A DNA stretch of 64,000 nucleotides. Origin: Acanthopleura granulata (Eukaryota; Mollusca; Polyplacophora; Chitonida; Chitonidae). Positions 7,885 to 56,040 of this stretch are shown here, in pieces. Positions within the stretch are counted from its first letter, which is position 1. Each line of letters starts with the position of its first letter. The position numbers were made by a program, and so were the translations under genes. Under the pieces are notes generated by a model. It worked only from the letters and a program-made list of their open reading frames with translations. It searched no databases and was not told the origin of the DNA. The stretch is from positions 310,001 through 374,000 of the forward strand of contig JABBOT010000029.1 in the NCBI GenBank assembly GCA_016165875.1, in the 5' to 3' direction.

Positions 7885-9077
7885 TAAATGTATGTATTTA
7901 TTGATAAAAATTCAAATTTTGCTTGTAAAAATTAAGCAATTGCAAAACTCGTTAAACTGTGACAGAAAAAAATAATGATAATGAAAATGTCTTAATTGTC
8001 TTAATGAAGTACATATATGCTAAGAGAGTGGAGAAACTTACTGTGAGCAGTAAGCCCTTGTGATAGCCCCCAGGGGAACCCAGTTGTTTTGGTTGGGGGA
8101 TCCAAGTGTTTGGAGTTGTACATGTGTGGGGGATGAGCTCTACTAACCAGTTGACTACAGACAAAGGCAAGGCCTGTCTTATGGCAGGCAAGCTGTCTAT
8201 AATTAGACACACTAAATTAGTGGCACATCTTCCCTTAAATCTCTAAAACTTTTCACCTAAACAGAAACAGAATGAGATACTGCAAAGAAGTTAAGCTTCA
8301 TAATACATGTTTCAGAATATTTCTCTTGAAGTTTATACTACATTACTGCATACAGGACATATGTTCCTGTGGGCAGATGTTTCAGGGTTGACCTGTAATT
8401 GAGGGTGGGGATTTTTAGGAAGGCAACCTCTTAAGTTGGACAACCAGAAGCTTCTAGTATTGGAGATCCCCTCTCAATGTAGTACATAAATCCAAGAAGG
8501 GGTTGCTGGGGTAAGTGTTTGTGCGACTCCCAACAACGCAATACATGTACATGCCAGCTGTGACTTACAAACACTGGCTGGACCAACTCATATCATCTGA
8601 CTTGGTCTAGGGGCAACAACAGTTTGCTAGCAGTAGTTTTGTTTAGGTTGTTTTGTGGTAAGCAATGTGGAGGAGCTTTTGGCAGCCGCGGAGGCAGTTT
8701 TGGCTACCATTGCTAACTGTGGAGAGTGTGATATTACTAGAGCTGGTTGTAGGCTGTCCTGTTCTCGTATGTCCTCCATGTGGTGAGTATGGCTTTGCCT
8801 TGCCTCATCACCACAAGCCAAGCTCTTTGCCTGCCTTATTCTTGAAGTTTCCTGGAGGGTACACAACTATGTCTATTTGCCGGCTTTCCATGCAGGAAAA
8901 TTTTGATTATCTTGCAGGTTGGCCAAGAAAGAGAAAAAAGTTTATAGAACAGTAATATTTGCCCATCTTAATTGTCTCCTTTGCTCTACAGTGAAAAACT
9001 TGTGTATGTTGTGTATGGTTATTTACGTGAGGTAACATGTAGATGCAGGTTATGTGGTTGTTTTAAACATGCCTGAC
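7885..9077. other. No gene recognised
   Basis: No recognisable gene. A stretch at about 8660-8780 is open in two plus frames and the minus frame and ends in a GTGAGT, but it matches no domain I know and has no clear upstream acceptor. Confidence 0.4.
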
Positions 9078-20575: not shown

Positions 20576-21019
20576 GTAACAATGATACAAATAGCAGCGA
20601 GTTATCAGATGGTAAATCCCAGGGCCACGTGTCCCAGTCCCTCCAAGACCCAGGCGCCTCAGCGATGGTACCCACCACCACCTCGCATTTCTCAACCCCC
20701 CTGGGCCAGACACCCATGCCCTCACCAGCCACGTCATCCGCCTCGAGCGCACCATTCCCATACCCATCTTCAGCACCAACAGGCACCCGCGACGATGCAG
20801 CGTCTGATCCAACCTCAGGCACAACGACTGCCAATCACACCATCTCACAGAGTGCATCACCAGCAGCAGACAGTGTTGACATGCCCAGCTCATCCCCGCC
20901 AACCCCCACAGCCGCAACGAAGCTCAGTGACTCTAACGCGTCGTATACCAGAGTTACGGGAAACACAGTTATGAAAAGTGGAATTGAGATCTGCCTTGAC
21001 CCTGACTGTGTGAAAGCTT
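20576..21019 (+). CDS. M13 peptidase exon 1 of those found: Ser/Thr/Pro-rich stalk and start of ectodomain
   Basis: Follows TTGCAG and ends before GTAAGT at 21020 (enters needing one base, leaves phase 1). It encodes 147 full codons. About 133 residues are rich in S, T, P and A, with possible N-glycosylation sites (NDT, NSS, NHT, NAS). It ends with [11 protein letters not shown], the usual first-Cys segment of M13 ectodomains. The exon is clearly more GC-rich than its surroundings. Typical NEP/ECE stalks are much shorter, so this mucin-like spacer would hold the enzyme away from the membrane (inference). Confidence 0.88.
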
Positions 21020-24000
21020 GTAAGTCATAGTTATGATATGACTGAGCTGTTGCCTATTCCCCAAGTCTTGTTCTTGATAGGGATATTTTGGCCACTGATG
21101 AGCACATGAGGTTAAAATCCTGGTTCTAAGTCTCTACAACTGGTAGACTGCCGTGGTTCACAATGTACCTATTTTGCTCTCTTAAACAGTGAGCATTTTT
21201 CACACTGAATTCATGGTGCTAATGTTAAAGGAAAACTTACATATATATTGGATTGAAGTGTTTAGAAGCGTAAAAACATGAATAAATGTGAATGTAGACT
21301 TCTGCACTTCGCATTTTGAACAGTGGTTTTTCAGTGTCAGTATGGTTGGCAAGATCCCACAAGTCTGACAGATTTGAAGATAAAAACTTCCAAACTTATA
21401 AATATATGTACAGGTACAATTGCAGAGCATTATAGAGCATTTTTTGCATAAAACGTGTGTATCCCTTTATGAGTCATCACCTTTGTGTAAAGGGTTCTAA
21501 GAATAAATTGCTTTTTCCTCCCGGCTGTCCACTCAATTTTATGCAGGGCATATGTCGTTATTTATTACATTTAAGATTCTCAACTCACACCAGGTGTGTA
21601 AATTGACCTGATCTAGGGCACTATCAGGTTATTTTTTTAGAAGTTGTCTGCCCTTGTGCATATTGCTCAAATTTGTGCGCAGACCCAGTTCCTCCCTTGA
21701 CTTGGTGTTCACCAACACGAACAGAGTGGTACAGATTGTAACCTCCCTCTTCTATGTTTGTTGCCATGCATATGTCCATGTCGATATTGAATGAAATGAT
21801 GTGTGTCTTTTTTTATATTTTCTTTCATTTGCATTTTATGTAGGTTGTGCATTTACACACAAGTGAACACATGTTTCTTAAAAACATATTAATACTGTGC
21901 AGTGGTGTGCTATATTTATATTTTTTGGGGGGTGGGGTGGGGATTGCAATCTCTGATTGCTTTCTTGGTGTGATAAATACTGATGATGATGCTTACAAGT
22001 GATCTATTATCTTCACATACACTCTACCTGTACAATATATATTGTAACCAAGTGCTTACTTTTTGATTGGAAAGAAAAATGAGATTCCACTGTAATTACC
22101 GTTTACACAAAAAGCAAATCTTTAGTATGTTTATTATAAGGTGTTTTGAAATCGATCAGTGTAGGTATTTTGGCCTGCTTTGATATGAAATTCTCCATAA
22201 CATAATACATTTTTCATTGTCAAAAGATGATGAGCTTAAAGTTCAAGTTGTTTCAGTTTCTTAGATTTTTTCACTTGCCATAACTTGTTTGGGCTTTTCC
22301 CCTTTAACAGCAGCTAGACTAATGTCCTCAATGAACACACATGCTGACCCTTGTGATGACTTCTTCGAGTATGCCTGTGGCACGTGGAACAAACTTAATG
22401 TCATTCCTGAAGACAAGCCTAGCTACAACACCTTTTCCAAACTCAGAGATGACCTCCAGGTGGTTTTAAAAGGTAAAATTAATTTTTCTGTCTTGACTAT
22501 TTTGACTGGATGCAACTTGTTTTATTTGATTTTTGTCATAACAGTCGAACAGTGGAGATGCATAAAGCCTACATATAGCATTGATACTAAAGTTATAACC
22601 TTTGTTAATATTTTTCTGGATTAGTTTTTGTAGTTAACTAAATCAATGTCATCAGCACATTCTGTACCAGGTGATACTCCAAAACATTGTGACTTTATTG
22701 CCTCTTTACTCAGTTTGGGCAGGTGATAATTTACATGTAAGGCAGTGTAGTTTGTCAGACTATTATGACCAGTCAAAGAACTGCTAGACATTTTACATGT
22801 ACCAAAGTCACAACAGTACCTAATTAGTTTATAATGAAATAAGTATGTAATCTACCAAATGTCTGAGAGTGATTATATAAAAAACTCAGACTGCCTCTAT
22901 TGTACATGTTCAGACTCACAGTGACGTATTCATCATGACAACGAGACGGTTACCCCTGGTTAAATAAACTTTGCACTGTCAAAGATTATATATAAACAGT
23001 GCCCTCTGCTAAAGGGACAAGTTATGATGATGCTGGAGAGTCAACTAGTAAGGACCTCTGATTCACGGTCACCCTCCATGTTACAGTTAGAATAAATGAA
23101 CTGTTGTTGACAACACAAGTGTTTCAGTTGTTCCATTGTGGTGACCACATAATGAACAATGACTACACAACTTAACGATTGACCATCCTGGTCAGAAGTA
23201 ATATATATATATATGACCGTACCTCTGATCATATTTGGTGAAGAACTTGAGTTTGTTGGCGAGATGATGAAACATCCAATATGTTTCAATCACTTTGTGT
23301 GATTACATATTACTCTGTTCATGTTGCAGAGTTACTGGAGGTACGGATATCACCAGATGAAGGTGAAGCAACTAAGAAGGCTAAATACCTATACCAGTCA
23401 TGTGTGAATGAAAGTAAGTTATGATTGGTCAAACTCAAGATCTTTGATCAGTTGTGGGTGTCCTACGATTCTCTGTGGTCTCAGTGGCTTCTACAAACAT
23501 TGTAGTGAAAAGCTTGTCAGGTCTGGCAGGCTCATTTAATTGTAAAAAATTGAAATTACCAAGAAGATAGGTTGAGAAGATCACTACATGCATAGAATTT
23601 CTACTATCTTGCAATATGCAATTATTAATATGCTTTTTACTCTAAAATTTCTGCAGGTGTTTAATAATTATCAACCTTTCCTCATGTAAAAGAACAAGAT
23701 TTGAAGCATAGACCTCTGGTAATCCATGAAAGTTTGATTCCTTTCTTTTTTTTTTCTTTTTATAAGTTTATTTGGAGTTTAACACCATATTCAAGTGTTC
23801 ATCATTTCACTTGCGTCCAGCTTTATGGTGGGAGGAAACTGCTAAGTGCTCGGGGTAACCCCACGATCATCAGCAGGTTGCTGGGAGACCTTCCCACAAA
23901 CACCATCGGAAGAGGAAGCAAGCATGAGTTGGATATGAACTGATTGTGCATTCATTATATGAAATGCATTAGTCTCGGTGCTTTATATGTAAACATGTCC

Positions 24001-27000
24001 AGTTTTCTCCCACTATATTATTGGTTGTATAAGTGAAATAATCCTAAGTATGTCAGTATGGATAAAACTCCAATGAAATAAGTAAATGAATCATATTTAA
24101 ACAGTTTTGACATTCAAGTGGTTGCAAGAAAGTTTAAGCATTGGTAGGCCCATCAGTTCTATCACAAGAAAATAAACATGGTGCACAAACAATATAGAAG
24201 TTTTTCAATACAGGCGTATACGGGTATGTTATAAGCTGTTCATGCCTTAAAACGTCTCAGTTTACATCAAAAGCTGGTTTGGTCCATCCATCAACCTTCA
24301 TCACAGTTATTTCAGTGAAAAATTGTTAATCAAACACATTGCATTACATACATGAAAGCATTGGTTAATGTATAAATAAACTGCTTGGTCATCAGTGTAG
24401 ATGTAATCCTCTTACGAAAAACAGTTCATAATTCAGTGTGCAATTTTACAGAAATCAGGGCTAATGAATGAATGAATGAATGAATGAATGCTTATTGTTT
24501 AACGCCCTACTCAAGAATATTTCACTTATACAAAGGCGGTGTCTCCTTGGTGCAGGACGGATTTCCACCGTATCTTTTATCTTGTGCTGCCTCACCGAGA
24601 CGACTTGCCGAAGACATCCAACAAGCCCCCTCACCCAGCCACATTATACTGACACCGGGCCGACCAGTCCACCCTCTATCCTCCTATTGCTGAGTGCCCA
24701 GCGAGGAAGCAGGATGTACCATTTTTTAAAGTCTTTGGTATGACCCGACCCAGGTTTGAACCCAGATCTCCCCGTCTGAAAGCGGACACTCTACCAACTT
24801 CAGTGCTAATGCACGTATTTAACACTTGTATGTAGCTGCTCACATGGACAACACATATCATTAAATTACACTGTAATGTTCCATATGATACCATATATTG
24901 GAGATCTTGTCCAAATTACAAAAGTGGCAAGTGACAAAATGACAAAAGAATGAGCAGCAAAGAACATTCTACATAGTGGTGATCACAGACGACACAGCCT
25001 TTAAGGAATTTGCCAATTAAATAAACTTGTGAGTTTCATTATTCGATTTTGAAAATGTTGTTTTTGCAGCACTGATTGAGTCTAGAGGTTTGGCCCCTTT
25101 GTTCTCTCTGCTTCATCAGCTCGGGAACTGGCCAGTTCTGTCTGGTTCTGACTGGAACTCCACGGCCTTTGACCTCCATGAACAACTAGCCTTGATCTCT
25201 GTGTTAAATGATGAATCTATTCTTCTGCGCCTTGTTGTCTTTGCTGACCCCAAACATTCGGAAGTTAATATAATTCAGGTAGGCCTTGCTTTTTTGTTCA
25301 TTGTGACAATATTGTGAGTGTCTGTCCTATTTTTCAGCCTTAATTGATTCTCGCGGCTTGAACCCCGCTTTTACATTGTTGGAAGAGTTTGGAGGCTGGC
25401 CTGTGGTAAATGGTAGCGACTGGGACGAGACTGCATTTGACCTGGTCAATCTGTTGGCAAAACTACGTCTCTACAACAACAAGATTCTTATTGAGCAGTG
25501 GGTGGGGTCAGACGACAAACAGTCTGACACCAATATTATCCAGGTACGAATTTTCTGAGCCGCTTTCGATCCAATCTTTATTAATTGCTTGAAATTTCGC
25601 CAGCACTAAATAAACCGTAGACTGCACGTGTCCACCGTCTCTTCTAACACTTATTTCACATCGCATCGCATGACTGGCTGATATTTCTCCAACCCTAAAC
25701 TTTATTCCTGTTTTAATCTTTCATTATGCAACTTGCGCTGGTTTCATTGCTGAATGCTCAGCTGTAGCTTGGTGTTGACTCATTCAGATGCATTACTTAA
25801 AAAACTGTTTTGGATTGGCTGTAGTCATAGCTATGTTGATGTCCACTGGTTGATTACCCAGTACTGTGTTGTTTTCATGTGATACATGTGTGTCATGTTT
25901 TTCATGTTATTGTACTAATGAAGTAATAAAGCATATTGGACCTGCCTGCAACATACATTTACTTGTCTTTCACCTAGAACACATGTGGGCATCTTCTGCT
26001 CTGTAACAGTGAAAACCTTGTGAGCAGGCAGAAAGGGTCACAAGTTACATGTATGTGACAAAGGATGATGTTTTATGCAAATATTTGTGAAAGTTGACCA
26101 GGCTTATCCTGGAGTATTTCATGATCAAACACAAGAGAACACTGACCTTAGTATGTCACAAACATTATTCAGATGAAGTAGCATTTGGAGCAGACCACTG
26201 TTGGCCAACATATCTAACCTTCTAATGCTGGTATATTATAGATAGTGCAGTACTAGTTTCATGGTGTCCTGAAGGGGAAATAAGCAAATTTTCATGAAAA
26301 ACTATTGAAATGTTGGGAAGCTTTATTAAAGTGACGCTGTGACATTCCTTTATAAGTCCACATTCATGTTAGTGTTGAATCAGGGAGCAGAGGTTTATGT
26401 TGGAAATATTCATGGGCATGTGACAAGTGAACATAATATTATTAGGTATTATGATAGCACATGTAGGATTTCATTGTAGAGATGAGTTTCAGTGGTTGAA
26501 TACTGCCACGTGCCTTTATGTGCAGTCATCATTGTTTACACAGACCTAATAGGTTTCTGTAGAACGTATTATTGAATATGTGTTAATAAACATGTGGCCT
26601 TATTGGCAGTGAGTGGGAGAAAAGATGAAAGGTTATGAGAAGTCACTAGCTTTGGAGCATAGTTTATCAAAACATGAACAAGGATAATATTAAATCTGTA
26701 ATCCCTCCGGGCAGTTGGGCAATGAAGGAATGGCATAATGCCTCATAATCAAAACTCATCCCATTATATGATGAACACAAATCAGTGGGATACAGCATGT
26801 TGGCTCTGTAAAAAAATGTTGGTGTCAGAAGTTGGTGGTGCCAGGTTGGGTTTTTTGAGGGAAGTTGCACAGTTTCTAGAGTTGACTACTAGATTAGTAA
26901 GCAGCATGGCTGTGCTGGGTTGCACTGAGCGTCCCCCTGTGTATCCCAAGCATGCAGATGGTTGCATGTCATTAGCACATCAGTGTGTTTCATGATGCAC

Positions 27001-30000
27001 AATTTCATCAGCTTTCAAGGCATTTGCAATAATCTGCATACCATTTTTGTCAGTCTTTTTCTTCTTTTGCTGATTCTTCATCAGTGTACTCATAATCCAG
27101 GAAAATCTTCATGTACTGGTACACAAACTGTATTATATGCATATAGTATGCCTGGAACATACACAAGTCACATGTTTTATGTAGAACGTTTGATATGAAA
27201 ATTTTTTATTTCTCATTACAAAGTGTATCATGGATTTATGTCAGTGATTATATCTATGAGAAGTTCTGATAGTGTGGGTTTAAATAGTATGTAAGTGAAT
27301 AACTTGACGTTATTTTTAATTGAGAACTTTATTAATTTTCAGTTTATCATAAATATCAGTAACTAATGAGTATGTGATTCAGAAGAAAGTTTTTCAATAA
27401 TCTAACCTTTATTTTCATAACAAACATGCAAATCACTGGAGTAACTCATGCCTGATACATTTTTTTCGATGAAATACGCCATCATCTACATGCATAATGG
27501 CACACATTAAATTCCATATACATGTACATACACTGAAGAAACCCCTTACTCGGTTCTTTATTACAAGTTGTTGTATACCTCTTTGCTGTTAACAGATAGA
27601 TCAACCCGAGCTGGGCATGCCCAGTCGAGATTACTACCTCAAAGGTCGAGACGACCCTGTAGTTCAGACCTATGAAGATTTTGCCCGTCAAGTGGCCATA
27701 TTCCTGGGTGCAGACCATGAGACAGCAGACAGAGAGATGAAAGAAATGGTTGACTTGGAGGTGGCCTTGGCAAACGTAAGACAGGTTTTTTTACTGTAAG
27801 GAGTGTACCTGTTTTCTGGAGATGTGCTGTTCATACCATTGTGGTATAACCTGATTAATACATTGTAGCCTGTTACAGCTGGATTAAATAACATGGAGTC
27901 TTGTTTTCTTGGATGAAAGACCAAATGACACTAGGCTCAGGGTTCGTTCTTGGCCTGAAAATCCTTGAAAGTGCTTGAAAATAAATTTTTTTTCCAGGCA
28001 CTGGCAAACCTTGAAAATAAAAGATAGCTCATGGCTAAGGCACTGTTCATTCAAAAGATTATACAATTTTCTCTTGATTGCAAAACTTTGTTTGAATTTG
28101 TATGAATTTGTTGCTGAATTATCATTGTTTGAAGAGTGGAGTATTTTGCTGCCGATTGGGGATCTGAAGGTAAACATGCTTTTTAGCTTAGGAGAGATTG
28201 ACCAGTCAGAGAACTAGGCGATGTCAGCTGTTTATAAGCTGTGATGTTAATCTTCCATGCTGACTGTTAAGGTAACGTGTAACAACATAGAGTCGGGACA
28301 TTGTTGTAATGTTACATGTTATAAATTATTACAAGTGCATGTATGAACATTAATAGTTCCTTAAAAATAGGATTGCAAGTTGACATGCATTTCCCTCTAT
28401 ATAATATAGCTGTATGCCACAGATTATGATGTGTATGGAGTTTTGTATGGCGATTGGCATTAGGTATCTGGCAGTTTGAAAGGTGCGCTTCATAATTGAT
28501 ATTGTGTGAAATTATGTCTACATTACGACTGGCATTAAACCCTTAGCAATCACAATAAAAATAGACATACATTATCCTCTACCTAATTAGTATTTTGAAT
28601 TTACAATTTGACCATAGGGGGCGTTGTAAATCAATTATGACTCGAACTCGCAGTCCTTTTTAACTATCGCCAGATGAATTGCCTGCTGCAATTTGAATCT
28701 CCTGATGGCTCAGGGCAACAATACAACAAGCACTACACCTATCATATTCACATCAAAGATACATGACGTTGTCCTCTATCCGGTCAGTGTAATAATTCCG
28801 AGTTCCGTGGTAGAGGGCGCGAGAGATAGTCATATACTATCCAGTTTGAATCGCCTGCTGGCCCAAAACTCACCTATAAATCACACCAGACACTTCAAAG
28901 TCAAACTATGTATTTGTGTAATCCCTGTAGTCACAGCAGCAATACAACAAGCACTAGAGCCATCATACTCATATCAAATGTACATCACGTCATCTTCCAT
29001 CAGGTGAATATAATAATTCCAGTGTTCAGCGATAGAGGGAGCAATAGATAGTCATACACTGTTCAGTTTGAATCACCTGCTGACCCAAACCTCACCTACA
29101 AATCACACCATGTACTTGCATAGCCATGGTTTATCACGAGCCACAAAATGGCCACTTTCGGCCAGCCAGGGGGTGCTTTAACGAATTGCCGGATGGATAG
29201 CCAGCTACAACAAGCACTAGACCCATCATATTCACACCAAATATACATCACGTCATCCTCCATTAGGTGAATGTAATTATTCTAGAGTTCGATGATCCCA
29301 TACACCATCCAGTTTGAATCACCTGCTAGCCCAAAACTCACCTAGAAATCACACGAGAGACTTCAGAGTCAAATCATGTACTTGTGTAGCCACTGTCTGT
29401 CACCATCCACAAAATGGCGACTTTCGGCTGAGAGGGGGCACTTTTAAGCAGTCACGGGATGAATATCCTGCTGGAATTTTAATCGCAAGTGGTTCACAGC
29501 AACAATACAACAAGCACCAGGCCCATCATATTCACACCAAATATACATCATGTCATCCCCAATAATTCCAACTATTGACGGTAGGGGGACTGTCATGCAC
29601 TGTGAAGTTTTAGTCACCTGCTGGCCCAAAAGTAGCCTACAAATCTCACCAGAGACTCCAAAGTGAAACAAGCTACAGTTGACATGGGGTGCTTTCAGGC
29701 TATCACCAGATGAAAAGCCTGCTGGAATTTGACTTGCCTCATGGCTCACAGCAACAATACAACAAGCATTAGACCCATCACATTCAGACGTTCAAGGATA
29801 GGGGGCTGTGTCATACACTATGGAGTTTGAATCGTCTGCTGGCCCAACACTAGCCCACTAATCACACCCAGAAGAGACTTTAAAGTCAAACAATGTAATT
29901 GTGTAGCCATGATCTATCACCAGCCACAAAATTGATGCTTTCGGCCAACGGAGGGCAGTTTTAAGCAATCACCAGATGAATAGTCTGCTGGGATTTGAAT

Positions 30001-45000: not shown

Positions 45001-48000
45001 TCGCCCTGCCAGGAGAAGACAAATTTTATATACATTCTAAGGACTCCTCACCATCTAATAAGTCTTCCTATATACATGCATCAATTTACATGGAATGAAC
45101 CAATGAATGAATGGGGTGTATTGGCAGATTGGAAGTATTTCAGCCATATCACAGTCACAGTGTGTTTTAGTATTTATGTTATTGTATTTCCAGCAAATTT
45201 CATCCGATACAGCGCATGTATATACTATTAACACACCAAAATAGAATGCGCATCGTATTGAATATGGTTTGGCACTGATACTGTTGACTTAAATCCACAT
45301 ACACATGTACATGTATGTATGAGATTTAAGAAATTGTGTTTGCGACCCAGAACACAGTTCCATACCTCTTAATTCAATTCTATTATAACTGCTTATTTGT
45401 GCAAGACACAGATACTCTGAAGGTGTGACATATCGCAGCATGATTAGGAAGGAATTTCTGTGAAACAGTGCTTTCGGAACCTTAATTAACTGAATCCAGA
45501 GTGTCCATGTTGATGTGTATTTATGCAGATTGTAAGGTAGCATTTCAGTGGAAACTTCATTCTGAACCAAATAGATACAAATTATCATAAAACCGTATTT
45601 GGTGAGTCAGCAGCTTTACATTGTTACATACACATTTATATGAGGGCCCGAACTGGTTAAGTGAACCAGTGGATTCTGCCTCAGGCTGACTAGCCCCTGC
45701 AAGGCTCCAAACCAGCTGTGGTAAATCAGATGGATTGTCTGGTATCCAAACCAAGTCCAGTTGTAGTAAGACATATAGATTGTGTGGTATTCAAACCAAG
45801 TCAAGTTGCAGTAATGGATTGCGTGGTATTTAGCATCTTGGAGTGGTTTCCGCTGTGTCTGCGATGTTAAAATCTGAAGTGCTATGAACTAAACTGCTAT
45901 CACATGTCAGAAGGCTGCAAAGGTGTAGGGCAGAGGTTTCTGAGACTTGTGAATCCATGTATTTGAAATGTTGTTCCTGATCACACCATAAGAAGATCAA
46001 AAAATAAGACATAAATGTACATCAGCATGATTATTGCTTAGCAAGTGAGTTAATTGCAAAGAGATTGTAATGTTATTGAAAGTTTTTGAACATTATTACT
46101 TGCATGTTTTGCGGTCATTGTCATTTTCCTGAATCTCTCCATTTTGCAGCTGAATGGAATTCAAACACAGGGTGAAAACATTGCTGATAATGGTGGATTA
46201 AAAGAAGCATATAGGGTTTGTATAAACTTCACTTGTAAATTTTACACAGCTTGAAATGTTTTTGATCATTGAAGATATTTGCTGTGTCAGAATGTGACTC
46301 CAGCATGGACACTAACCATATGCCATTACGGTGGATACAGATCCATACATGTAGTCTGGATATGACAGTCTGAAATTAACAAATGAAATATGAATTATTT
46401 GGCTGGAGTATTAGCCTGACTGATCATTTCCAGAGTGCTTTACTCCTAATTGAGTGTTGACACTGATGTCAAAGTTTACCAAGTTCCAAATGCAGGTGAA
46501 ATTCCTATTTTCTCTCTTTTAGAGAAATGATCGTAATCTGCGTAGCAGAGCCTGTGATACTGGCAGGCCATGACCCCTCCCCAAATGCATCCAAATATAT
46601 AATTATCATCATCTCCTAGGGACACTTACTGAGTGTGCAGTGAAGAGGGAGCATGTCAGTTCATCAGTTAGTCAGATGTCTAGTATGATGTCTGAATCAG
46701 CTTGTATTTGTGCAGGTAGTCAACAAAAATTTGAACAAAAAAATAATATTAGTACCAGTAAAACATGTGAAATGCTAGTGATTTGTCACTGGAATGGGAA
46801 GAGCTAGTGGAATTCTAGTAATTCAGTTATGGAATGGGGGAGTGTTGATTGTTTGTCTTTTGGAATTGGGAGTGCTTGTGGCTTGCTTGTGGAATGGGGA
46901 GTGCAAGTTACTTCTCTGTGGAATGGAGAGTGCAAGTAGCTTGTCTGAAGTATGGGAAGGGCTAGTGGCTTGCCTGTGGAATGGGGAGTGTGAGTGGCTT
47001 GTCTGTGTAATGGGGAGGGCTAGTGGCTTGCCTGTGGATTGGGGAGTGCTAGTGGCTTGCTCGTCAAAAGGGGAATGTGAGTGGCTTGTCTGTGTAATGG
47101 GGAGTGCTAGTGGCTTGCTCGTCAAAAGGGGAATGTGAGTGCTTTGTCTTTGGAATGGGGAGGGCTAGTGGCTTGCTTGTGGAACTGGTGTGCCAGTGGT
47201 TTGTCTGTGCAATGAGGAGGGCTAGTGGTTTGTCTGTGGAATGGGAAGTGCCAGTTGTTTGTCTGTGGAATGGGGAGTGTTAGTGGTTTGTGGAATGGGT
47301 AGTGTTAGTGGTTTGTGGAATGGGGAGTGCTAGTGGTTTGTTTGTGGAATGGGGAGTGCTAGTGGCCTTTCTGTGGAATGGCGAGTGTTAGTGGTTTGTC
47401 TGTAGAATGAGGAGAACTGGCGTTTGTCTGTGGGGTGGGGAATGCTAGTGCTTTGTTTGTGGAATGTGGAGTGCTAGTTGCCTTTCTGTGGAATGGGGAG
47501 CGTTAGTGGCTTGTCTGTGAATTGGGGAGTACTAGTGGCTTGTCTGTGGAATGGGGAAGCCAGTGGTTTGTGTGTGGAATGGGGAGTACTAGTGGTTTGT
47601 CTATGGAATGGGAAGGGCTAGTGGTTTTGTTTGTGGAATGAGAAGGGCTAGTGGAATGCTACTGGTTTATTGTCTGCGGAATGAGGAGTGGCATGCTGGA
47701 AAACTGCACTTATTTATCTACTCTCTGTTTGTGACTTTGTCTTCATGGATGATGATGTGATTTACTCCTGCTTTTGGTGGGATTTCAACTGAAATCTGAT
47801 CACCATCTTAACGTTTACTATCTTCCATCATACATCGTTTTATTTAAGGACCACCTCGGTGGCCTGGTAGTTAGAGCATCTGCCCCGAGGTCGGGAGATC
47901 CGGAGTCAATCCCAGATCGGGTCATACAAAAGACCTTAAAAATGGTACTTGTTGCTGAGACCTTGGGCCTGGTGTGAGCATAATAAGACTGGATGGGGTG

Positions 48001-51000
48001 TCATATCTGGTGTCTTTGGCATGATGTTCCAGTGGCGGCAGCACTTTGGAGGCATTGACACTCCCTGCCACAAGAAGGCACAGTGTATATACATTCTATG
48101 TACTCCTCCTCCTCGTGATGACTGAAAAACTGTTAAGTATGACGTAAAACCCCAAGCATACCTATTATTTAAAAAATGTATGACTTTGAAATGCAGTGAA
48201 CCCTGTATTGTGCATAAGTGTGATACTGTCCATTTAAAATGCCTTTATATGTGCCTAAGTTTGATAAATACCACTGAGGCTACTGCATTGTATAGTCGTA
48301 TAAATGATATCCCCTATATGTATGTAGGCCTACTCTAACTGGGTCAAGAATGAGAGAGGAGGTAAGGAAGAACCACGGCTGCCAGGTCTAGAGAACTTCA
48401 GCCATGAACAACTCTTCTTCCTGAATTTTGCACAGGTGGGTGGAAGATTTGATAGGATTTGTACTAACTGACCTAATCCAATGACATAGCTCTTGTGAAG
48501 TATGTATCCCATGCTAAATCTTAACTCTTATGTTTTTAACTAATTGCTTTATCATGATTGTGGTGAAAATTGTTTGCAATTAACATTGCAGTAATGATTC
48601 AGAATTCTGTGTCTTTCTTTAAAATACCATATTTCGAGGTAGTAACAATTTGTTTTGTGAAACATTTACAATTACTAATTCTTCAACTTATCACATGCTT
48701 CCATTAAGCAATTCATCCATGACAAAACATGAATACTCCGAAGTACTTGTACATGGGTATTACGTGTATTTCCACACCTTGAGAATATGTGCTGAAAATA
48801 AAATAACAAATGAGAGGCTGTTCAAAAGCCATGACAACATTTTTCATAACTGCAACCTCACTGGTCAGGGCCATATCGGCTTCAGTGAGATCATTGCTTT
48901 AGCTGCCGCTTGTTCAATAAGGTCAAAACAGAACCATTTAGACAGTCATCAGTATTAATTACATGTACATGTATTTGATAAGAAAAAGATTAGAAGTTAC
49001 CTTTTCATGTCATATGCCACATAAAGAGGTTGATTTAATCTCTTTGAAGATAAAGGTAAAACTTTCACAACTTGAATATTCGAAATATATCTACAATGTA
49101 AATAGGATGTAATAAAATGGGGAAAACCCTTCAATAAACAAAACCCTACAATAACAGTGCACATTACATGCTCTCAGTTCAAAACACAGAGGTAATTTAA
49201 ACATGCCTGGTTAGTATCTGATGGGCATTTTTTCCTCTGATGTAAGGTTTGGTGTGGGACAATTCGGCCACAGGAGGCCCTGAACCGAATCAGAACTGGG
49301 GTGCACAGTCCTGGCAGATTTAGGTAAGTCTTAACACTATTATGGCACCATACTTTGTTTCAGCAGAGTTTATCTTGATATGGCTTAAAACTAGGAAAGG
49401 GACAAGGCATAGAATTCACGGGACAGAGGAGAGATGGGTGGGGGGGGGGATACAATCCCAATTAACACCAAATTCAAATGGATAAATGCTCTTTCCAAAG
49501 CCGCAAAACGTTCTTGGTCAAGTTGCGGGCAGATAGTAAGAAAGGTTTAAAGAATTCTGGGATTCATGTCCAGATCAGCTCCAAAGTTAACGTAGCCCAT
49601 GGCCAACTGTCTCATGCAGCAGGAAATCAAACACATCAATTTGAACACCAAATGGCCAAAGTGAGCTTTCTGTGTGAAGACTAAAAATTGGCTTAGACTT
49701 CAAGTGATGCATGGCTGATATAAAAAAGAATGGTTATTTCTAAGAATGATTTGATTATGGTGTTTAGCTACAATAAAATAAATGAATTAATCTAAGGATG
49801 ATTGTGACTTTACAATTTGGCATATGAAGATTGAGGCTGTTTTGGGCAGAGGTAAAAATTGAAAGAGATATTTAAGCGAATAAAACTAACCACTCAGTCA
49901 TTCACTGAGTGTCTGAGGTGAAGAACATTGGGTCAATCAGTCAGTATCTGAAGTGTAGAACTAACCACTGTGTCAGTCAGTCAGTATCTGAGGTGTAGTA
50001 CTAAACACCAAGTCAGTCAATCTGTATCTGAGGTGTACTAACCACCGAGTCAGTCAGTCATTCAGTATCTGAGGTGTAGAACTAACCACCGAGTCAATCA
50101 GTCAGTATCTGAGGTGTAGAACTATCCACTGAGTCAGTCAGTCAGTGTCTGAGGTGTAGAACTAACCTCTGAGTCCGTTGCCATTGAGGCATATCTCTTC
50201 TTTACTTCCAGGGTGATCGGAACACTGCAGAATTCCATGGACTTCTCCTCAGCATTCAACTGTGAAGTTGGCTCTCACATGAACCCTGCCAAGAAATGCT
50301 CAGTGTGGTGAAAAAATTAGCTTCCTCAGAAATTAGCTTTGTGAGCCCTTTGGGTATTCTAGGGTGTCTGTCCAGTACAGTACACGAAGAGACTGTGACT
50401 TAGCACTGGCTGAAGTGAAGATTAATGGGCCTGTTCCAGTTCAGTTGTCAGACCTGTTGGCTGTGAACATAACAGATTTAAAAAAAAAAGATTGAAATTT
50501 GGTTGTAAAAGGGTGAAACATTGGGAGAGCAAATGTCATGCTTTGTGTCAGTATGAAGACAAACACAAATCATGCCAAAGAATGTGTATATTTATCAATA
50601 TATGTTATCTAACGAATTCTTCTTGTCTTTTTGGTGTTGACTGCATCAGCAGTTATTAGTTCATTAGGGCTGTCAGAATGCCTTTTGATATTAATTCTGC
50701 ATGATGGTTTTATGTGTAAGCTTACATGAAATCCTGTATATGATTCTCAGACCATTTAAATGGATCATGTTTGCACATTTAATATACATATTGCTATTTA
50801 AAAGACAAAAGCATTAAGAAAAATATCTAAATACATGTATTTGTGACAATTTGTCATCCCATAACTGTTGTAGTACTTTTTAGTTTTGTTTTCAAATAGT
50901 ATACCTTACTCTTTCCGAAGTGGTGATATAGAAATGCATTATGTAGTGTCAGTATGATGGTAATCAGCACTTGAACACTGGGCGTGTTGTCTCCCTTTAC

Positions 51001-54000: not shown

Positions 54001-56040
54001 GTTCTAATATCGGCGAGGATTCGATATACACGTATTCTACACTTACTTCTTACATAGCATGTTGATTTGTTTGTCTTTTGACATGAATTCAGTTCACGGT
54101 TCATAAATAACTGGCTTTATTTCGTTAACTAACAATGTTATTCTACATGTGACACGAACAGATACATCCCATAAAGCATCACTGCCTTAAAGAAATCCAC
54201 AGAATTGCTAGTAACAACACTGAGTGTAAATCAGAAAGTAAAATGCCTTGTAATAGGTAACCTGGGATAACCTCTGATAAGGGGGTTGAGCCAATGCGGG
54301 AGAGCGATTGTTGCACTCTGATATAGCCTGGGTTGAGTGAAGACAAAGGGTTCGTTGCACTAACATCTGATGGAGCCTTGGACCAATGCGACGGAGAAAC
54401 CAATACACTGGGGAACCTTTCGTGAAGTTTAGAGCCAATATGAAGGGTGAGTTGTTGCACCGGTTAACCCGTGGTGAAGCCTGTGGCAAGTAAGACTGAG
54501 GAATTATTGCACTGGGTAATCTCTGATGGAGCCTGTGGAGGGTAAGACAGTGGAATGGTTGTACTGTATCACTTTTAATTACACCTGTGATGATTGCATG
54601 GGTAACCTGTGATTAAGCCTAAATTTTTTTCTGAGCCATGCGTATTGCTACTAACCAATTTTAATACTCCAAGTATCTTGCAACAGCCTGTAGCTGTCTC
54701 TATTATATACATGTAATCAACCTGAACGAAGCAGTTGTTGATAAATGTTTCATCCATGTATTCACTCTTGCTTCATTTTTCTGTCGTATACATGTGTACG
54801 TTTATTACTAATAGCACAACAGGAAAGTCAAGTGGGTGAGTAAAAAACAGAAATTGATGACATATTGCTTTAGTTAGTCGCCAGAATTGTCTGAATTCTT
54901 CTCAGTCTCTTTATTGCTGGCCAACCCCATTAGACAACAGCATTCTTATGTTTCTTTCACTAGATCTGGTGCGGAACTCACCGTCCACGAGCGCTTGTCT
55001 TCCATATCATCAAGGCAAGACATGCCATTCGTCGGTACCGGTAAGTAATCTACAGATCTTGAGTGTCGCGAGAATCTCGGACACATAAGTCATGCTGGAC
55101 ATCGGTGAGGAGGCCGCCCTGGATCGGCCATAGAAAAATCAAACCCTATAGGTCCTAATTAAATCCGGTTTAATTTATGATAAAAGAAAACCAGAAAATA
55201 AAATATTTTATGCAAAGCACCTGTGGCCCATATTTGCGAGCACAAGTGGCGTATCAGAACACTTTTAACAAGTTACGCTCAGTATGGGTGTATACTGAAC
55301 ATTGGCATGGGCCTATATACATATTCGGCAACACATTTGTGTACGTTGAAAAATGGCGATAACGACCATCATTTCATGATTAAAGTGGCGTGAGGAAGAT
55401 GACTTGCTATTTACTCGCGCTGGAAAGATGTTCAGCATAATGAATGATATCTGTCAAACCAAAATTAATTGTTCTTTTAGTCGATTTCAGATTTGCTTTT
55501 TGCTACCTTTTCCTTTAAGTATGCGTTAGGTGGCAGTTAGGCCTATGTCTGCGAAGGGTGGTGATTTTGTCTGGATCCCCTCTCCACCCAACAAATTCAG
55601 TAGTCTGGGTATTATTGAACCATTCTTTAGTAAAAGTCCACGACTTTGTCTTACTTTCTCATATCATGAGTTCATGTTTGACCCTTCTACTCCCGTGTAC
55701 ACAGTGTCTCCAAATCGGTATGTTGAGCAATAATGTCAACAATCATTTGTGATTGGGATCGATGTTATCAGGAACGGAGCCGATGACTTTAGGTCAGTGT
55801 AATCAAATGTGTTCATACTTTCAATTAAATCAAAAATACACTGTGCATCTCCATTCCACAAGAAAAAAACCCAATAATAGACACAGGAAAAACCAACAAC
55901 TGGGCTAATTCTACATTAATTCATACGTTTCTTATTTCAGTGTGATTGGCACTCTACAAAACATGCCAGAGTTCTCGGAAGCCTTTAACTGTCTCCCGGG
56001 GCAGCCCATGAATCCACAGAGGAAATGTTCCGTTTGGTGA
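20576..56040 (+). CDS. M13 zinc metalloendopeptidase (neprilysin / endothelin-converting-enzyme-like), multi-exon, 5' end missing
   Basis: The gene spans at least 35 kb and reads through about 20 joined exons, open for about 821 residues from the stalk exon to the stop. Order: Ser/Thr/Pro-rich stalk; first ectodomain Cys (CLDPDC); [55 protein letters not shown] (substrate backbone binding); [19 protein letters not shown] (two zinc His plus catalytic Glu); GENIADNGG (third zinc ligand Glu); FFLNFAQ; WCGT; HSP (transition-state His); and the ending KCSVW. M13 enzymes are type II membrane ectopeptidases that cut small signalling peptides outside the cell. Exons 4, 15 and 19-20 each exist in two versions (see exon entries). 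The membrane-anchor exon was not found. It may be either a NEP- or an ECE-type enzyme; sequence by eye does not decide. Confidence 0.95.
22311..22472 (+). CDS. M13 peptidase exon 2: N-terminal ectodomain
   Basis: Encodes [34 protein letters not shown] in family register (Cys residues for conserved disulphides), then the helix [16 protein letters not shown]. The acceptor is AACAGCAG, a tandem NAGNAG site. Using the second AG removes one Ala without changing frame. The donor GTAAAA at 22473 leaves phase 1. Confidence 0.95.
23330..23413 (+). CDS. M13 peptidase exon 3
   Basis: Encodes [19 protein letters not shown] then YLYQSCVNE, the family's YxxCxN block. The acceptor GTTGCAG precedes it and the donor GTAAGT follows at 23414. 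It leaves phase 1 with a single A that completes Thr with either exon 4a (ACA) or 4b (ACC). Confidence 0.95.
23757..23945 (-). mobile_element. SINE family 1, partial, in intron 3
   Basis: Reads in reverse orientation from the tail (TTTATTTGGAGTTTAACACC) through TATGGTGGGAGGAAACTGC and GGTTGCTGGGAGACCTTCCC to GCATGAGTTGGATATGAACT. The tRNA-like head is missing. It lies about 1.1 kb before exon 4a. Confidence 0.8.
24470..24815 (-). mobile_element. SINE family 2 (tRNA-like head), near full length, in intron 3
   Basis: In reverse orientation: an (AATG)n tail side, TACTCAAGAATATTTCAC, AGCCACATTATACTGACACC, AGTCTTTGGTATGACCCGA, then a tRNA-like head whose complement contains a B-box-like GGTTTGAACC block near 24750. 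Related copies are at about 35.2, 44.8, 47.9 and 58.8 kb. It shares its 3' tail motif with SINE family 1. Confidence 0.78.
25070..25278 (+). CDS. M13 peptidase exon 4a, first of a mutually exclusive pair
   Basis: 209 bp, phase 1 in and phase 0 out, between TTTTTGCAG and GTAGGC. Encodes [30 protein letters not shown], then [15 protein letters not shown]. It aligns over its whole length with exon 4b, about half the residues identical, with one residue more. Splicing 4a to 4b would read CCT TAA at once. It takes part in the N-terminal lobe that closes over the active-site cavity. Confidence 0.92.
25338..25543 (+). CDS. M13 peptidase exon 4b, second of the mutually exclusive pair
   Basis: 206 bp, same phases as 4a, between TTTTTCAG and GTACGA. 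Encodes [31 protein letters not shown], then [15 protein letters not shown]. The VGSDDK block is closer to the usual family form (VGTDDK) than the 4a version. Only 59 bp separate it from 4a, too short for an ordinary intron with room for both splice complexes. This is a classic way to enforce a choice between two exons. Confidence 0.93.
25544..27595. other. Intron 4 of the peptidase gene, no further exon copy
   Basis: Searched for a third version of exon 4 and found none. AT-rich sequence without a recognisable repeat family or RNA gene. Confidence 0.5.
27596..27775 (+). CDS. M13 peptidase exon 5
   Basis: 180 bp, phase 0 on both sides. Encodes [20 protein letters not shown], containing the conserved IDQ...LPSRDYY block, then helices including the EVALAN segment. 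Acceptor TTAACAG, donor GTAAGA. Skipping both exon 4 versions would shift this exon's frame and hit a stop, so one copy of exon 4 is required. Confidence 0.95.
27935..28345. repeat. Dispersed repeat, copy 1, in intron 5
   Basis: Shares an ordered set of blocks with 37320-37690, including GAAGTGTGGAGTATTTTGC-like, TTTGAATTTGT and GTCAGAGA segments, in the same orientation. The start contains CCTTGAAAGTGCTTGAAAAT. No protein or terminal repeats were recognised. Confidence 0.65.
28620..30175. repeat. Satellite-like array, about six ~260-bp units, in intron 5
   Basis: The marker ACAACAAGCACTAGACCCATC recurs near 28722, 28944, 29210, 29506, 29757 and 30023, together with TTTGAATCGCCTGCTGGCCC and ATTCACACCAAATATACATC. 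Units vary from about 220 to 295 bp. The right end (30100-30175) carries the reverse complement of part of the unit, giving a foldback end. Coding potential is absent. Confidence 0.85.
30702..30788 (+). CDS. M13 peptidase exon 6
   Basis: 87 bp, phase 0. Encodes [29 protein letters not shown], matching the family's IxxPxxxRRDxxxLYNKMT block. The donor is GTGCAT, weaker than the other donors in the gene. Confidence 0.93.
31467..32238. mobile_element. Non-autonomous DNA transposon with CTACAG...CTGTAG terminal inverted repeats
   Basis: The left end CTACAGTACAGCTGGATCCT and the right end AGGATCCAGCTGTGCTGTAG are near-perfect inverted copies. The interior is rich in ATCATGG/CCATGAT words near both ends and has no transposase. 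Inserted in intron 6, about 130 bp before exon 7. No clear target-site duplication was identified. Confidence 0.75.
32366..32499 (+). CDS. M13 peptidase exon 7
   Basis: 134 bp, phase 0 in and phase 2 out. Encodes [20 protein letters not shown] then [20 protein letters not shown]. The donor AACAG/GTAAAG is followed at once by an array of about 35 imperfect copies of this same junction (see 32500-33897). Confidence 0.95.
32500..33897. repeat. 40-bp minisatellite made from the exon 7 splice-donor junction
   Basis: About 35 imperfect copies of a ~40-bp unit (GGTAACAGACAACAGGTAAG plus GGTCTTATCACCATCCTCCA). The unit resembles the end of exon 7 itself (ATCCTACAGGAGACAGACAACAG/GTAAAG). Most copies thus carry CAG/GTAAGG or CAG/GTAACA, good 5' splice-site consensus. 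A larger period of 237 bp is visible (33056 and 33293). Minus-strand frames through it are repeat artefacts. Confidence 0.93.
34230..34266. repeat. (AAAT)n run before exon 8
   Basis: A short AAAT-type microsatellite, 30 bp upstream of the exon 8 acceptor. Confidence 0.8.
34297..34390 (+). CDS. M13 peptidase exon 8
   Basis: 94 bp; one base completes the Arg codon from exon 7. Encodes [20 protein letters not shown], matching the family's LNNYLxWRxV helix. The acceptor is CCTTCAG. An (AAAT)n run lies just upstream, in the polypyrimidine region of the intron end. Confidence 0.94.
35225..35580 (-). mobile_element. SINE family 2 copy in intron 8
   Basis: Reverse orientation, with GTACTCAAGAATTTTTCAG, GTCACATTATACTGACACCA, CTCTCAGTGCTGAGC and AGTCTTTGATATGACCCAA in the same order as at 24.5 kb. 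It ends about 50 bp before exon 9. Confidence 0.78.
35630..35758 (+). CDS. M13 peptidase exon 9
   Basis: 129 bp, phase 0. Encodes [20 protein letters not shown] then [20 protein letters not shown], the well conserved WRxC...N.GxAxGxLF block. Acceptor TTGTAG, donor GTAAGT. Confidence 0.95.
36172..36270 (+). CDS. M13 peptidase exon 10
   Basis: 99 bp, phase 0. Encodes [20 protein letters not shown] then [13 protein letters not shown] (family WMDxxTxxxAxxK). The last 33 bp and the first 28 bp of the intron are repeated three more times downstream. Each copy has the same GTAGGT donor. Confidence 0.95.
36238..36475. repeat. 61-bp tandem repeat copying the exon 10 / intron 10 junction
   Basis: Four units with an exact 61-bp period. 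The GTAGGT donors are at 36271, 36332, 36393 and 36454. Each unit carries AATGATGAA...GACAAG/GTAGGTAACAAC. Reading past the first donor meets TGA after eight codons. Using a downstream donor would therefore insert a stop. Confidence 0.95.
36630..36707 (+). CDS. M13 peptidase exon 11
   Basis: 78 bp, phase 0. Encodes [20 protein letters not shown] then DYDFGD, matching the family's KIGYP block. The acceptor is TTGTAG and the donor GTAGGA. Confidence 0.92.
37152..37255 (+). CDS. M13 peptidase exon 12
   Basis: 104 bp, phase 0 in and phase 2 out. Encodes [20 protein letters not shown] then [15 protein letters not shown]. The YFEN segment is conserved in the family. The split Arg codon is completed in exon 13. 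Confidence 0.94.
37320..37690. repeat. Dispersed repeat, copy 2, in intron 12
   Basis: Same orientation and block order as 27990-28345 (AAAGATTATA, TGTTTGAATTTGTCTGAATT, GTGGAGTATTTTGCAGCCGA, GTCAGAGAGCCAGGAGTCAT). Its family is unknown. Confidence 0.65.
38592..38650 (+). CDS. M13 peptidase exon 13, substrate-binding VNAF motif
   Basis: 59 bp. Encodes [19 protein letters not shown]. The Asn-Ala of VNAF hydrogen-bonds the substrate backbone in neprilysin (established knowledge). The donor GTAAGT leaves phase 1. Confidence 0.95.
39036..39150. repeat. Three-copy 38-bp tandem repeat in intron 13
   Basis: GAATAAACCAGAAGGGTTGT starts at 39036, 39074 and 39112, giving an exact 38-bp spacing. Confidence 0.9.
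39340..39391 (+). CDS. M13 peptidase exon 14
   Basis: 52 bp. Encodes [17 protein letters not shown] plus two bases (AA) of a Lys codon completed by the G that begins either exon 15a or 15b. [10 protein letters not shown] is strongly conserved in M13. Going straight to exon 16 gives GCG TCA GTT TGA, so one exon 15 version must be used. Confidence 0.95.
40030..40097 (+). CDS. M13 peptidase exon 15a, zinc-binding HEITH exon, version a
   Basis: 68 bp between CCATCAG and GTGGGT, phases matching exons 14 and 16. Encodes [22 protein letters not shown]. The two His of HEITH bind zinc and the Glu is the general base; the following Asp residues are also conserved. It differs from 15b in only four residues (S/N, Y/F, A/M, Q/R) but in ten further codons silently. 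Both copies therefore look selected as protein. Confidence 0.95.
40630..41560. mobile_element. Two SINE family 1 fragments as a long inverted repeat between exons 15a and 15b
   Basis: The arm at about 40690-40895 matches the reverse complement of the arm at about 41230-41446 over roughly 200 bp (AGCCAAGTAATCACATGGC, CTACTATGC-like, TTCTGACCCCTAA, CAACTGTTAAGTCATAA). SINE family 1 motifs continue outside both arms (TACTCAAGAATGTTTCAATT on the left, GAGGAAGCCAGTATGAGCTA on the right). The transcript should form a strong hairpin in the intron that separates the two HEITH exons. Confidence 0.8.
42507..42574 (+). CDS. M13 peptidase exon 15b, zinc-binding HEITH exon, version b
   Basis: 68 bp between TTACTAG and GTATTC. 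Encodes [22 protein letters not shown], closest to the usual family form [13 protein letters not shown]. Splicing 15a to 15b would read GGT CAC TGA. The pair can therefore only be used one at a time. The residues that differ sit around the S1' side of the active site in M13 enzymes, so isoforms might differ in substrate preference (inference). Confidence 0.95.
42736..42862 (-). mobile_element. SINE family 1, internally deleted, in intron 15
   Basis: From (TTTA)n through ACGCCATACTCAAGAATATT it jumps directly to CATCTGCAGGTTCCTGGCAG and AAGCCAGCATGAGCTGGACT. About 60 bp of the body and the tRNA-like head are missing. Confidence 0.8.
43008..43830. repeat. Repeat with about five ~150-bp units, copy 1, in intron 15
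   Basis: Units contain GACCTTTTTCTTCAAGGTCA-like, TCATTTAAGTTAAATTTTA, AAGGCTTGTAAACG and CTTACACCACACTTACAC blocks, repeated about five times. It ends with GGTTTTAAGTGCATTGCACA. The same units and the same end occur at 52.6-53.0 kb, so it is a mobile or dispersed family. Confidence 0.8.
44655..44785 (+). CDS. M13 peptidase exon 16
   Basis: 131 bp, phase 1 in and phase 0 out. Encodes [36 protein letters not shown], matching the family's GRxxDKxGNLxxWW and FxxxxxCxxxQYxxF blocks. Acceptor TTGACAG, donor GTGAGT. Confidence 0.95.
44845..45065 (+). mobile_element. SINE family 2 fragment in intron 16
   Basis: A degenerate head and TCATTTCTGGTGTCTTCGAAATG, then GGCAGCATGGGCTCGCCCTG, matching the body of the copy at 47.85 kb in the same orientation. 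The tRNA-like head is poorly preserved. Confidence 0.65.
46150..46215 (+). CDS. M13 peptidase exon 17, third zinc ligand
   Basis: 66 bp, phase 0. Encodes [22 protein letters not shown]. The Glu of GENIAD is the third zinc ligand and the Asp supports the catalytic site in the family. The exon is single-copy, so both HEITH versions share it. The donor GTTTGT is non-consensus but in the right place and phase. Confidence 0.95.
46790..47690. repeat. 29-bp minisatellite in intron 17
   Basis: About 30 imperfect copies of a unit with core GTGGAATGGGGAGTGCTAGT and GGTTTGTCT. Both strands have short open frames (SH-rich peptides on the minus strand). These reflect the repeat, not a gene. Confidence 0.93.
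47850..48165 (+). mobile_element. SINE family 2, near full length, in intron 17
   Basis: A tRNA-like head with ACCTCGGTGGCCTGGTAGTT (A box region) and GGAGTCAATCCCAGATC (B box region), body GGTGTCTTTGGCATGATG, and tail AAGTATGACGTAAAACCCCA. It is the best-preserved head of this family in the window, and ends about 160 bp before exon 18. Confidence 0.85.
48328..48435 (+). CDS. M13 peptidase exon 18, last common exon
   Basis: 108 bp, phase 0. Encodes [20 protein letters not shown], then [16 protein letters not shown] (family LPGL..xxxQLFFLxFAQ). From its GTGGGT donor the transcript can go to 19a or, skipping 19a and 20a, to 19b. Confidence 0.95.
49247..49323 (+). CDS. M13 peptidase exon 19a
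   Basis: 77 bp, phase 0 in and phase 2 out. Encodes [26 protein letters not shown]. The His of VHSP and the closing Arg correspond to the neprilysin residues that stabilise the transition state and fix the active-site geometry. The acceptor is GTAAG (AAG), a less usual 3' site. Ends in AG, which needs the G of exon 20a to keep Arg. Confidence 0.93.
49895..50178. repeat. ~40-bp tandem repeat just before exon 20a
   Basis: About seven units with GTCAGTCAGTCAGTATCTGA, GGTGTAGAACTAACCAC. The array stops about 35 bp before the acceptor of exon 20a and so may include its branch-point region. Confidence 0.9.
50212..50311 (+). CDS. M13 peptidase exon 20a, terminal exon with stop
   Basis: 100 bp to the TGA at 50309-50311. 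Encodes [33 protein letters not shown]. The terminal CxVW motif closes the last family disulphide and is essential in M13 enzymes. Acceptor TTCCAG. The 3' untranslated region follows, with an AATAAA at 51032-51037. Confidence 0.95.
50312..52560 (+). other. Probable 3' untranslated region of the 20a isoform and following sequence
   Basis: No further exon-like frame. T-rich, with AATAAA at 51032 and 52294 and an AT dinucleotide run near 51532-51546. Confidence 0.55.
51032..51037 (+). terminator. Candidate poly(A) signal for the 20a isoform
   Basis: AATAAA about 720 bp past the exon 20a stop. It is the first canonical hexamer I noticed after the stop; another lies near 52294. Which one is used cannot be told from sequence. 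Confidence 0.5.
52600..52990. repeat. Repeat family of 43.0-43.8 kb, copy 2
   Basis: Two to three units with GAAAGAACCCTGTTGATTTT, CTTGACCTTTTTCTTCAAGG, TGTCCCAAGTTCACGAAATT and the shared end GGTTTTAAGTGCATTTCACG. It lies between the two alternative 3' cassettes. Confidence 0.8.
52991..54963. other. Intervening sequence before exon 19b, no extra exon found
   Basis: I searched for a second copy of exon 18 or earlier exons and for a promoter-linked first exon, and found none. Between about 54250 and 54600, phrases such as GATGGAGCCT...GCACTGGGTAACC recur loosely four or five times. Confidence 0.5.
54964..55040 (+). CDS. M13 peptidase exon 19b, alternative copy, divergent
   Basis: 77 bp, exactly the length and phases of 19a, between TTTCACTAG and GTAAGT. 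Encodes [32 protein letters not shown], the His and the closing RYR are kept, but the Glu of RPE and the Ser-Pro after the His are lost. It is therefore either a functionally different C-terminal version or the start of decay. Ends in CG, so with either version of exon 20 it still gives Arg. Confidence 0.8.
55941..56040 (+). CDS. M13 peptidase exon 20b, alternative terminal exon with stop
   Basis: 100 bp, same length and phase as 20a, after TTATTTCAG, ending at TGA 56038-56040. Encodes [32 protein letters not shown], which is closer to the family consensus than 20a. Its first base T completes Arg (CGT) with 19b but would give Ser (AGT) with 19a, so 19b-20b look like a matched cassette. No near AATAAA was seen in the following few hundred bases. 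Confidence 0.88.

Follow-up and report, generated by a model that had tools for sequence, protein, structure and literature searches.

Peptidases of the M13 family cut signalling peptides and are drug targets. Partial searches of the open-licence literature turned up no duplicated internal exons in the genes for human neprilysin (MME) and ECE-1. Here we describe an M13 (neprilysin-type) peptidase gene on the plus strand of a 64,000-nucleotide (nt) stretch of DNA, C29:310001-374000 (hereafter the window, to which positions without a contig prefix refer). This gene encodes its zinc-site helix, its pocket rim and its C-terminus in two versions. It is a single-locus gene for an M13 ectopeptidase, and the animal is a chiton, very probably Acanthopleura granulata. 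The same partial view of open-licence papers showed no M13 gene whose catalytic exons are duplicated, consistent with the initial annotation of this DNA, which knew of no neprilysin/ECE gene with a duplicated zinc-site exon. In PMC5140268, the single "mutually exclusive" does not concern exons.

Besides MME and ECE-1, the closest described systems are Drosophila Nep4, coq-2 and OGDH. Drosophila Nep4, an M13 enzyme, is made as a transmembrane or a secreted isoform by alternative splicing (PMC8223033). Nep4 resembles the chiton gene in its alternative N-termini, for which the chiton gene has two candidate exon sets, but the choice reported for Nep4 affects targeting, whereas the chiton duplicates are exons of the catalytic core. 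In coq-2, the mutually exclusive homologous exons 6a and 6e remodel the enzyme core and switch its product, also in molluscs and annelids, and the same paper calls splice switches in an enzyme core rare and names CYP4F3 as another (PMC7434440). Among the literature found, coq-2 is the closest functional precedent we have seen. It involves one exon pair of a polyprenyltransferase and is backed by transcript and mutant evidence, whereas the chiton gene has three sets, encodes a peptidase and is known from genomic sequence. The mutually exclusive exons 4a and 4b of OGDH flank an intron of restricted size, where exclusivity results from branch points close to the 5' splice site, and their combined length is not a multiple of three (PMC7969005). 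In contrast, the two chiton copies of exon 15 lie 2.4 kb apart and are unlikely to use such a short-intron mechanism. The chiton gene belongs to known kinds, being an M13 peptidase gene with putative mutually exclusive and terminal alternative exons.

Three duplicated exon sets in one M13 gene

The window was read in three frames, and exons were joined wherever GT-AG sites agreed in phase, which gave a complete M13 peptidase. All 25 exons lie on the plus strand and have GT-AG at their internal splice sites. Exons 4, 15, 19 and 20 are each present twice, with equal phases, GT-AG sites and open frames: 4a (25070..25278, 209 nt) and 4b (25338..25543, 206 nt); 15a (40030..40097, 68 nt) and 15b (42507..42574, 68 nt); 19a (49247..49323, 77 nt) and 19b (54964..55040, 77 nt); and 20a (50212..50311) and 20b (55941..56040), both last coding exons of 100 nt including the stop TGA. 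Translation showed that all eight combinations taking one copy from each set are open to the final stop. A tblastn search with 138 M13 proteins matched every exon from E1 to E20b and found in the window no second full copy of any other exon of the gene. The exon coordinates, phases, open frames and translations thus bear out the initial annotation, which had proposed one gene with three duplicated exon sets, the same phases within pairs and family motifs kept in the copies. Of the limits that it gave, 20576 coincides exactly with the start of E1 and 56040 with the end of E20b. The exon at 20576 is not the first coding exon, since the initial annotation missed one upstream, E0 (8665-8782).

The protein was found to have the neprilysin fold. 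Pfam domains PF05649 and PF01431 cover the ectodomain far above cut-off in the canonical and the all-extra-copy protein alike: PF05649 scored 412.4 bits in the canonical form and 404.7 bits with all extra copies (a drop of 8), and PF01431 scored 252.6 and 250.4 bits, respectively (a drop of 2). The zinc site of the family is there, with HEITH in both copies of exon 15 and GENIAD, within GENIADNGG and carrying the third zinc ligand, in exon 17 (46150..46215). Other M13 markers are the substrate-binding motif VNAFY in exon 13 (38592..38650), the equivalents of His711 and Arg717 in both 19a-20a and 19b-20b, and KCSVW, the C-terminal CxxW, in both of these as well.

The best database match to the protein, 89% identical over the whole query, was P0001 from the chiton Liolophura sinensis, which is named neprilysin-like isoform X2 and is built from 4b, 15b, 19a and 20a. 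Comparison with 60/120 proteins showed that these four copies are ortholog-like and that 4a, 15a, 19b and 20b are divergent extra copies. The best tblastn E-values of the extra copies were 2e-16 for 4a (to P0001), 9e-9 for 15a, 1.3e-10 for 20b and 1.8e-4 for 19b, the weakest. When the copies were aligned as nucleotides, exon 15 alone exceeded shuffled sequences; the top score among 500 shuffles was matched by exon 20 and was not reached by exons 4 and 19. Because the nucleotide alignments mostly do not exceed shuffles, the exon pairs are recognisable at the protein level.

The reading frame constrains the choice at exons 4 and 15. Inclusion of both copies of exon 4 or of neither, and of both copies of exon 15 or of neither, led in all four cases to a premature stop, in the exon concerned or in the one after it; one copy of each of these sets is therefore required for an open frame, in support of the initial annotation. 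Both pairs are tandem exons in the sense of adjacent homologous exons with shared phases and similar length. The spacer between the 4a donor and the 4b acceptor (25279..25337, plus strand) is 59 nt, and every other spacing in the gene is at least 359 nt. Exclusivity at exon 4 would be enforced by this 59-nt spacing together with the loss of frame, and a branch-point constraint like that of OGDH could hold in the spacer. Exons 15a and 15b are separated by 2409 nt, and their donors differ, that of 15a (AAG/GTGGGT) being strong and that of 15b (GAG/GTATTC) weak. Here the loss of frame would eliminate double inclusion, and regulation of the weak 15b donor, which the imbalance between the two donors suggests, probably contributes.

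At exons 19 and 20, both two-exon cassettes end in a stop codon of their own, which makes this a choice between last exons. Of the duplication described for this region, the two homologous cassettes were confirmed, but they form an alternative last-exon set and not a strictly mutually exclusive pair. The codon equivalent to Arg717, whose side chain hydrogen-bonds a bound inhibitor in human neprilysin (PMC4908401), is split across exons 19 and 20. The AG of 19a and the G of 20a give AGG (Arg), and the CG of 19b and the T that begins 20b give CGT (Arg), whereas splicing 19a to 20b would produce AGT (Ser) and lose Arg717. Since the split codon is preserved within 19b and 20b, these two exons are matched to each other. 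AATAAA occurs after the stops at +721 and +1274, which is compatible with two 3' ends, yet this motif is common by chance.

Age and constraint of the copies

We compared the copies at synonymous and nonsynonymous sites, using the proportions of these sites that differ (pS and pN, respectively). The values of pS and pN were 0.82 and 0.35 for the exon 4 pair, 0.90 and 0.11 for exon 15, 0.98 and 0.42 for exon 19, and 0.93 and 0.26 for exon 20; pooled over 147 codons they were 0.88 and 0.31. Synonymous sites are saturated, indicating that the duplications are old. When an equal number of random changes was placed on the ortholog-like copy, none of 20000 runs kept an open frame with at least the observed identity for exons 4, 15 and 20, and 0.13% of runs were open with at least the observed number of identical residues for exon 19. 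This simulation is crude, with random positions, equal substitution rates and the ortholog-like copy taken as the ancestor.

Conservation was then scored against 39 aligned relatives of our choice from the 138 proteins. The extra copies keep 41 of the 46 positions that are conserved at 90% or more, 34 of the 57 conserved at 60-90% and 13 of the 48 conserved below 60%. The corresponding counts for the ortholog-like copies are 46/46, 52/57 and 25/48, and they are flattered because P0001 is among the 39 relatives.

The interleaving of the pairs at three places argues for three separate local events rather than duplication of a gene. Flanking introns of the copies showed no significant similarity, the lowest p being 0.07, upstream of 15a and 15b. 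A genome-wide search with 4a found 4a itself, 4b (53%, the closest other sequence) and four further loci at 35-42%. A second M13 gene, which is ECE-like, lies upstream of the window on the same strand (C29:253066-281439, loci L009-L012), and tblastn found one copy of each of its exons; transfer of exons from this neighbouring paralogue was ruled out for this reason. In the 20 kb downstream of the window, tblastn found no M13 exons. These data point to three ancient local exon duplications of which both copies are constrained.

Substrate pocket and number of isoforms

In 15a, the residue equivalent to Met579 of human neprilysin, which belongs to the S1' subsite, is Ala. In 19b, the residue equivalent to Gly714, at the S1'/S2' rim, is Arg, and the HSPG segment becomes HAIR. 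The swaps in 15a and 19b would retune the substrate pocket, and 4a would alter part of the lid domain. The extra copies still have the HExxH motif and the equivalents of His711 and Arg717, so we expect the variants to be catalytically active but to prefer different peptides. We read the zinc motif in 131 of the 138 proteins. Ala at the Met579 position was seen in 3 of 130 proteins (P0131-P0133; a fourth, P0049, was mis-captured), which are prokaryotic-looking by their names and sources, and Arg at the Gly714 position was seen in none of 131 captured HxxxxxR strings, one of which (HEDAAPR) was mis-captured. Gly714 has also been mutated to Lys by protein engineers altering the specificity of neprilysin.

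Taken together, these results make it probable that three ancient duplications have been kept as alternative exons in a single M13 gene, with one copy of each used per mRNA and with a retuned pocket. With the zinc helix and the S1'/S2' rim each kept in two versions, the gene offers natural pairs for asking how the pocket sets specificity. RNA-seq from eight tissues of the sequenced animal is public (PRJNA578131; PMC7850002).

Several observations weigh against this interpretation. Exon 4a was found in none of 55 candidate proteins at an E-value of 0.001, a search of low power, since ordinary relatives of exon 4 also failed in it. For 19b-20b, 22 of 25 candidates matched, the best being 58% identical, and the 15a string GGIGAVIG occurred in none of the proteins in which the zinc motif was read, no search having been made with 15a alone. 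The protein database was clustered at 90%, which may hide isoforms of one locus. At 19 of 151 positions the extra copies have a residue unseen in the 39 relatives, as against 1 for the ortholog-like copies. Five near-invariant residues are altered: two in 4a (Leu to Ile, and the DDK motif to DPK), one in 15a and two in 19b (at Ser712 and Pro713). A tree of the alternative segments, built from 38 of the 39 aligned relatives (one gappy row was dropped) and two forms from the window, puts the extra copies on a very long branch with unsupported placement. Exon 19b is the least conserved extra copy, and its tblastn support is modest, backed by length, phase, splice sites and the split codon. Position 714 is itself variable, with Gly in 79 and Leu in 36 of 131 strings. 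In human neprilysin, G714K alone had modest effects on most other peptides tested, the authors crediting Gly399 more, and the effect of the extra copies on specificity is inferred by reading across from the human enzyme.

As to the number of products, the eight isoforms (2 x 2 x 2) of the initial annotation hold as eight open combinations and as an upper bound only, because no protein carrying 4a or 19b-20b was found. We tentatively suggest, with rather less confidence than for the alternative exons themselves, a combinatorial peptidase in which the S1' floor (exon 15), the S1'/S2' rim with the C-terminus (exons 19-20), the lid (exon 4) and the anchor would be chosen separately, giving up to 8 forms, or 16 with the N-termini. 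If this is true, the substrate range of a neuropeptide-degrading system would be set by splicing and not by a gene family. The extra copies could instead be real but used jointly (4a, 15a and 19b-20b together) or in a few fixed sets, so that two to four enzymes would be made. The sequence neither links nor unlinks the choices, 19b is coupled to 20b, and isoform X2 of L. sinensis combines all four ortholog-like copies. However, constant exons and distances of about 7-15 kb separate the three sites, and the pairs differ in splice-site balance, which favours separate regulation without being decisive; we regard joint use as somewhat unlikely. In our judgement it is improbable that the extra copies yield enzymes with weakened or no catalysis, serving to bind or sequester peptides or to regulate the active form. 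The change from HSPG to HAIR in 19b and the altered near-invariant Asp in 4a would fit such a role, and for Drosophila it has been suggested that inactive members of the family bind and sequester peptides (PMC8223033), but the extra copies keep HExxH, the His711 equivalent, the split Arg717 codon and CxxW, and a dead enzyme would need no Arg codon matched over a splice junction.

That the protein searches for 4a and 19b-20b, with their limited power, found no carrier, and that 19b is the least conserved copy, would also be expected if the extra copies were remnants of old duplications and had dropped out of splicing. Against this stands the combination of saturated pS with a pN of 0.31, since under neutral decay one would not expect open frames, phases and splice sites to survive along with 41 of the 46 key residues, and we consider such remnants very improbable. 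It is hardly credible that the copies are an assembly artefact, namely haplotypes or a collapsed second gene, even though a single assembly, a hybrid of Nanopore and short reads (PMC7850002), was seen. The copies differ at 29-56% of coding nucleotides, compared with a genome heterozygosity of 0.653% (PMC7850002). They are interleaved in three places and not in one block, the nearest other M13 gene shows single copies of its exons, with no M13 gene detected by tblastn over the 20 kb downstream of the window, and the other exons of the gene each have only one full copy in the window. The divergence and the unduplicated exons of the neighbour thus uphold the earlier assumption that the copies are neither haplotypes nor parts of separate genes. 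Retained alternative exons remain the interpretation that we prefer.

N-termini, constant exons and tandem repeats

E0 (8665..8782) is the first coding exon of one N-terminal form. It reads MWRSFWQPRRQFWLPLL...CPPCG, ends in phase 1 with the donor GTGAGT, and matches the N-terminus of P0001 in tblastn with 80% identity (E 1.9e-20). It joins in phase 1 to E1 (20576..21019), which begins with a Ser/Thr/Pro-rich stalk and is 75% identical to P0001 over 20548-21018. About 1.4 kb upstream of the window, an anchor-like exon (C29:308430-308560, KRTPLEVALIIISLVSTAVTVSLIVVLLVK) resembles the membrane anchor of mollusc relatives, and a candidate first exon precedes it (C29:306200-306270, MSINGKTAKYYIGTDGGSQVVFAG, locus L014). 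The phases are compatible, 2 into the anchor exon and 1 into E1, and the E0 form has a hydrophobic N-terminus unlike that of the anchor exon. E0 and the upstream exon pair are candidate alternative N-termini and a possible fourth choice, which would add membrane-anchored and differently targeted forms. The initial annotation noted neither these N-termini nor the residue changes in the substrate pocket. If the protein is read as membrane-anchored, the start of the gene lies outside the window. A hydrophobic stretch directly before E1 (20492-20575), which resembles a Mytilus anchor (E 0.03), was set aside because its frame differs and the upstream exon is the better anchor candidate.

The remaining constant exons were defined by splice-site reading together with the match to P0001. 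They are E2 (22311..22472) and E3 (23330..23413), before the exon 4 pair; E5 (27596..27775), E6 (30702..30788), E7 (32366..32499), E8 (34297..34390), E9 (35630..35758), E10 (36172..36270), E11 (36630..36707), E12 (37152..37255) and E14 (39340..39391), between the exon 4 and exon 15 pairs; and E16 (44655..44785) and E18 (48328..48435), before the terminal cassettes. Scans of the window for tRNA genes and with Rfam gave no match.

Tandem repeats lie in several introns. Minisatellites in intron 17 (46830-47654), intron 19a (49884-50175) and intron 13 (39035-39148) have units without clear likeness to an exon, the best matches being 17/29, 21/40 and 22/38 positions, respectively. The intron between E0 and E1 contains a 24-bp tandem array of about 134 copies (9086-12290), which is open for hundreds of codons on both strands, as is possible because the unit length is a multiple of three. 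At 36237-36476, a 61-bp unit is repeated 3.9 times; it joins the final 34 nt of exon 10 and its donor to 27 nt of intron. Four equivalent donors stand in a row, and splicing from the second, third or fourth would introduce in-frame stops. Much of intron 7 is filled by a minisatellite of 40-bp units (32465-33907), in which AACAGGTAAG occurs 9 times and AACARGTAA 15 times. At 34 of its 40 positions, the unit consensus agrees with the end of exon 7 (24 nt) followed by 16 nt of intron, so the splice donor of exon 7 has been repeatedly duplicated.
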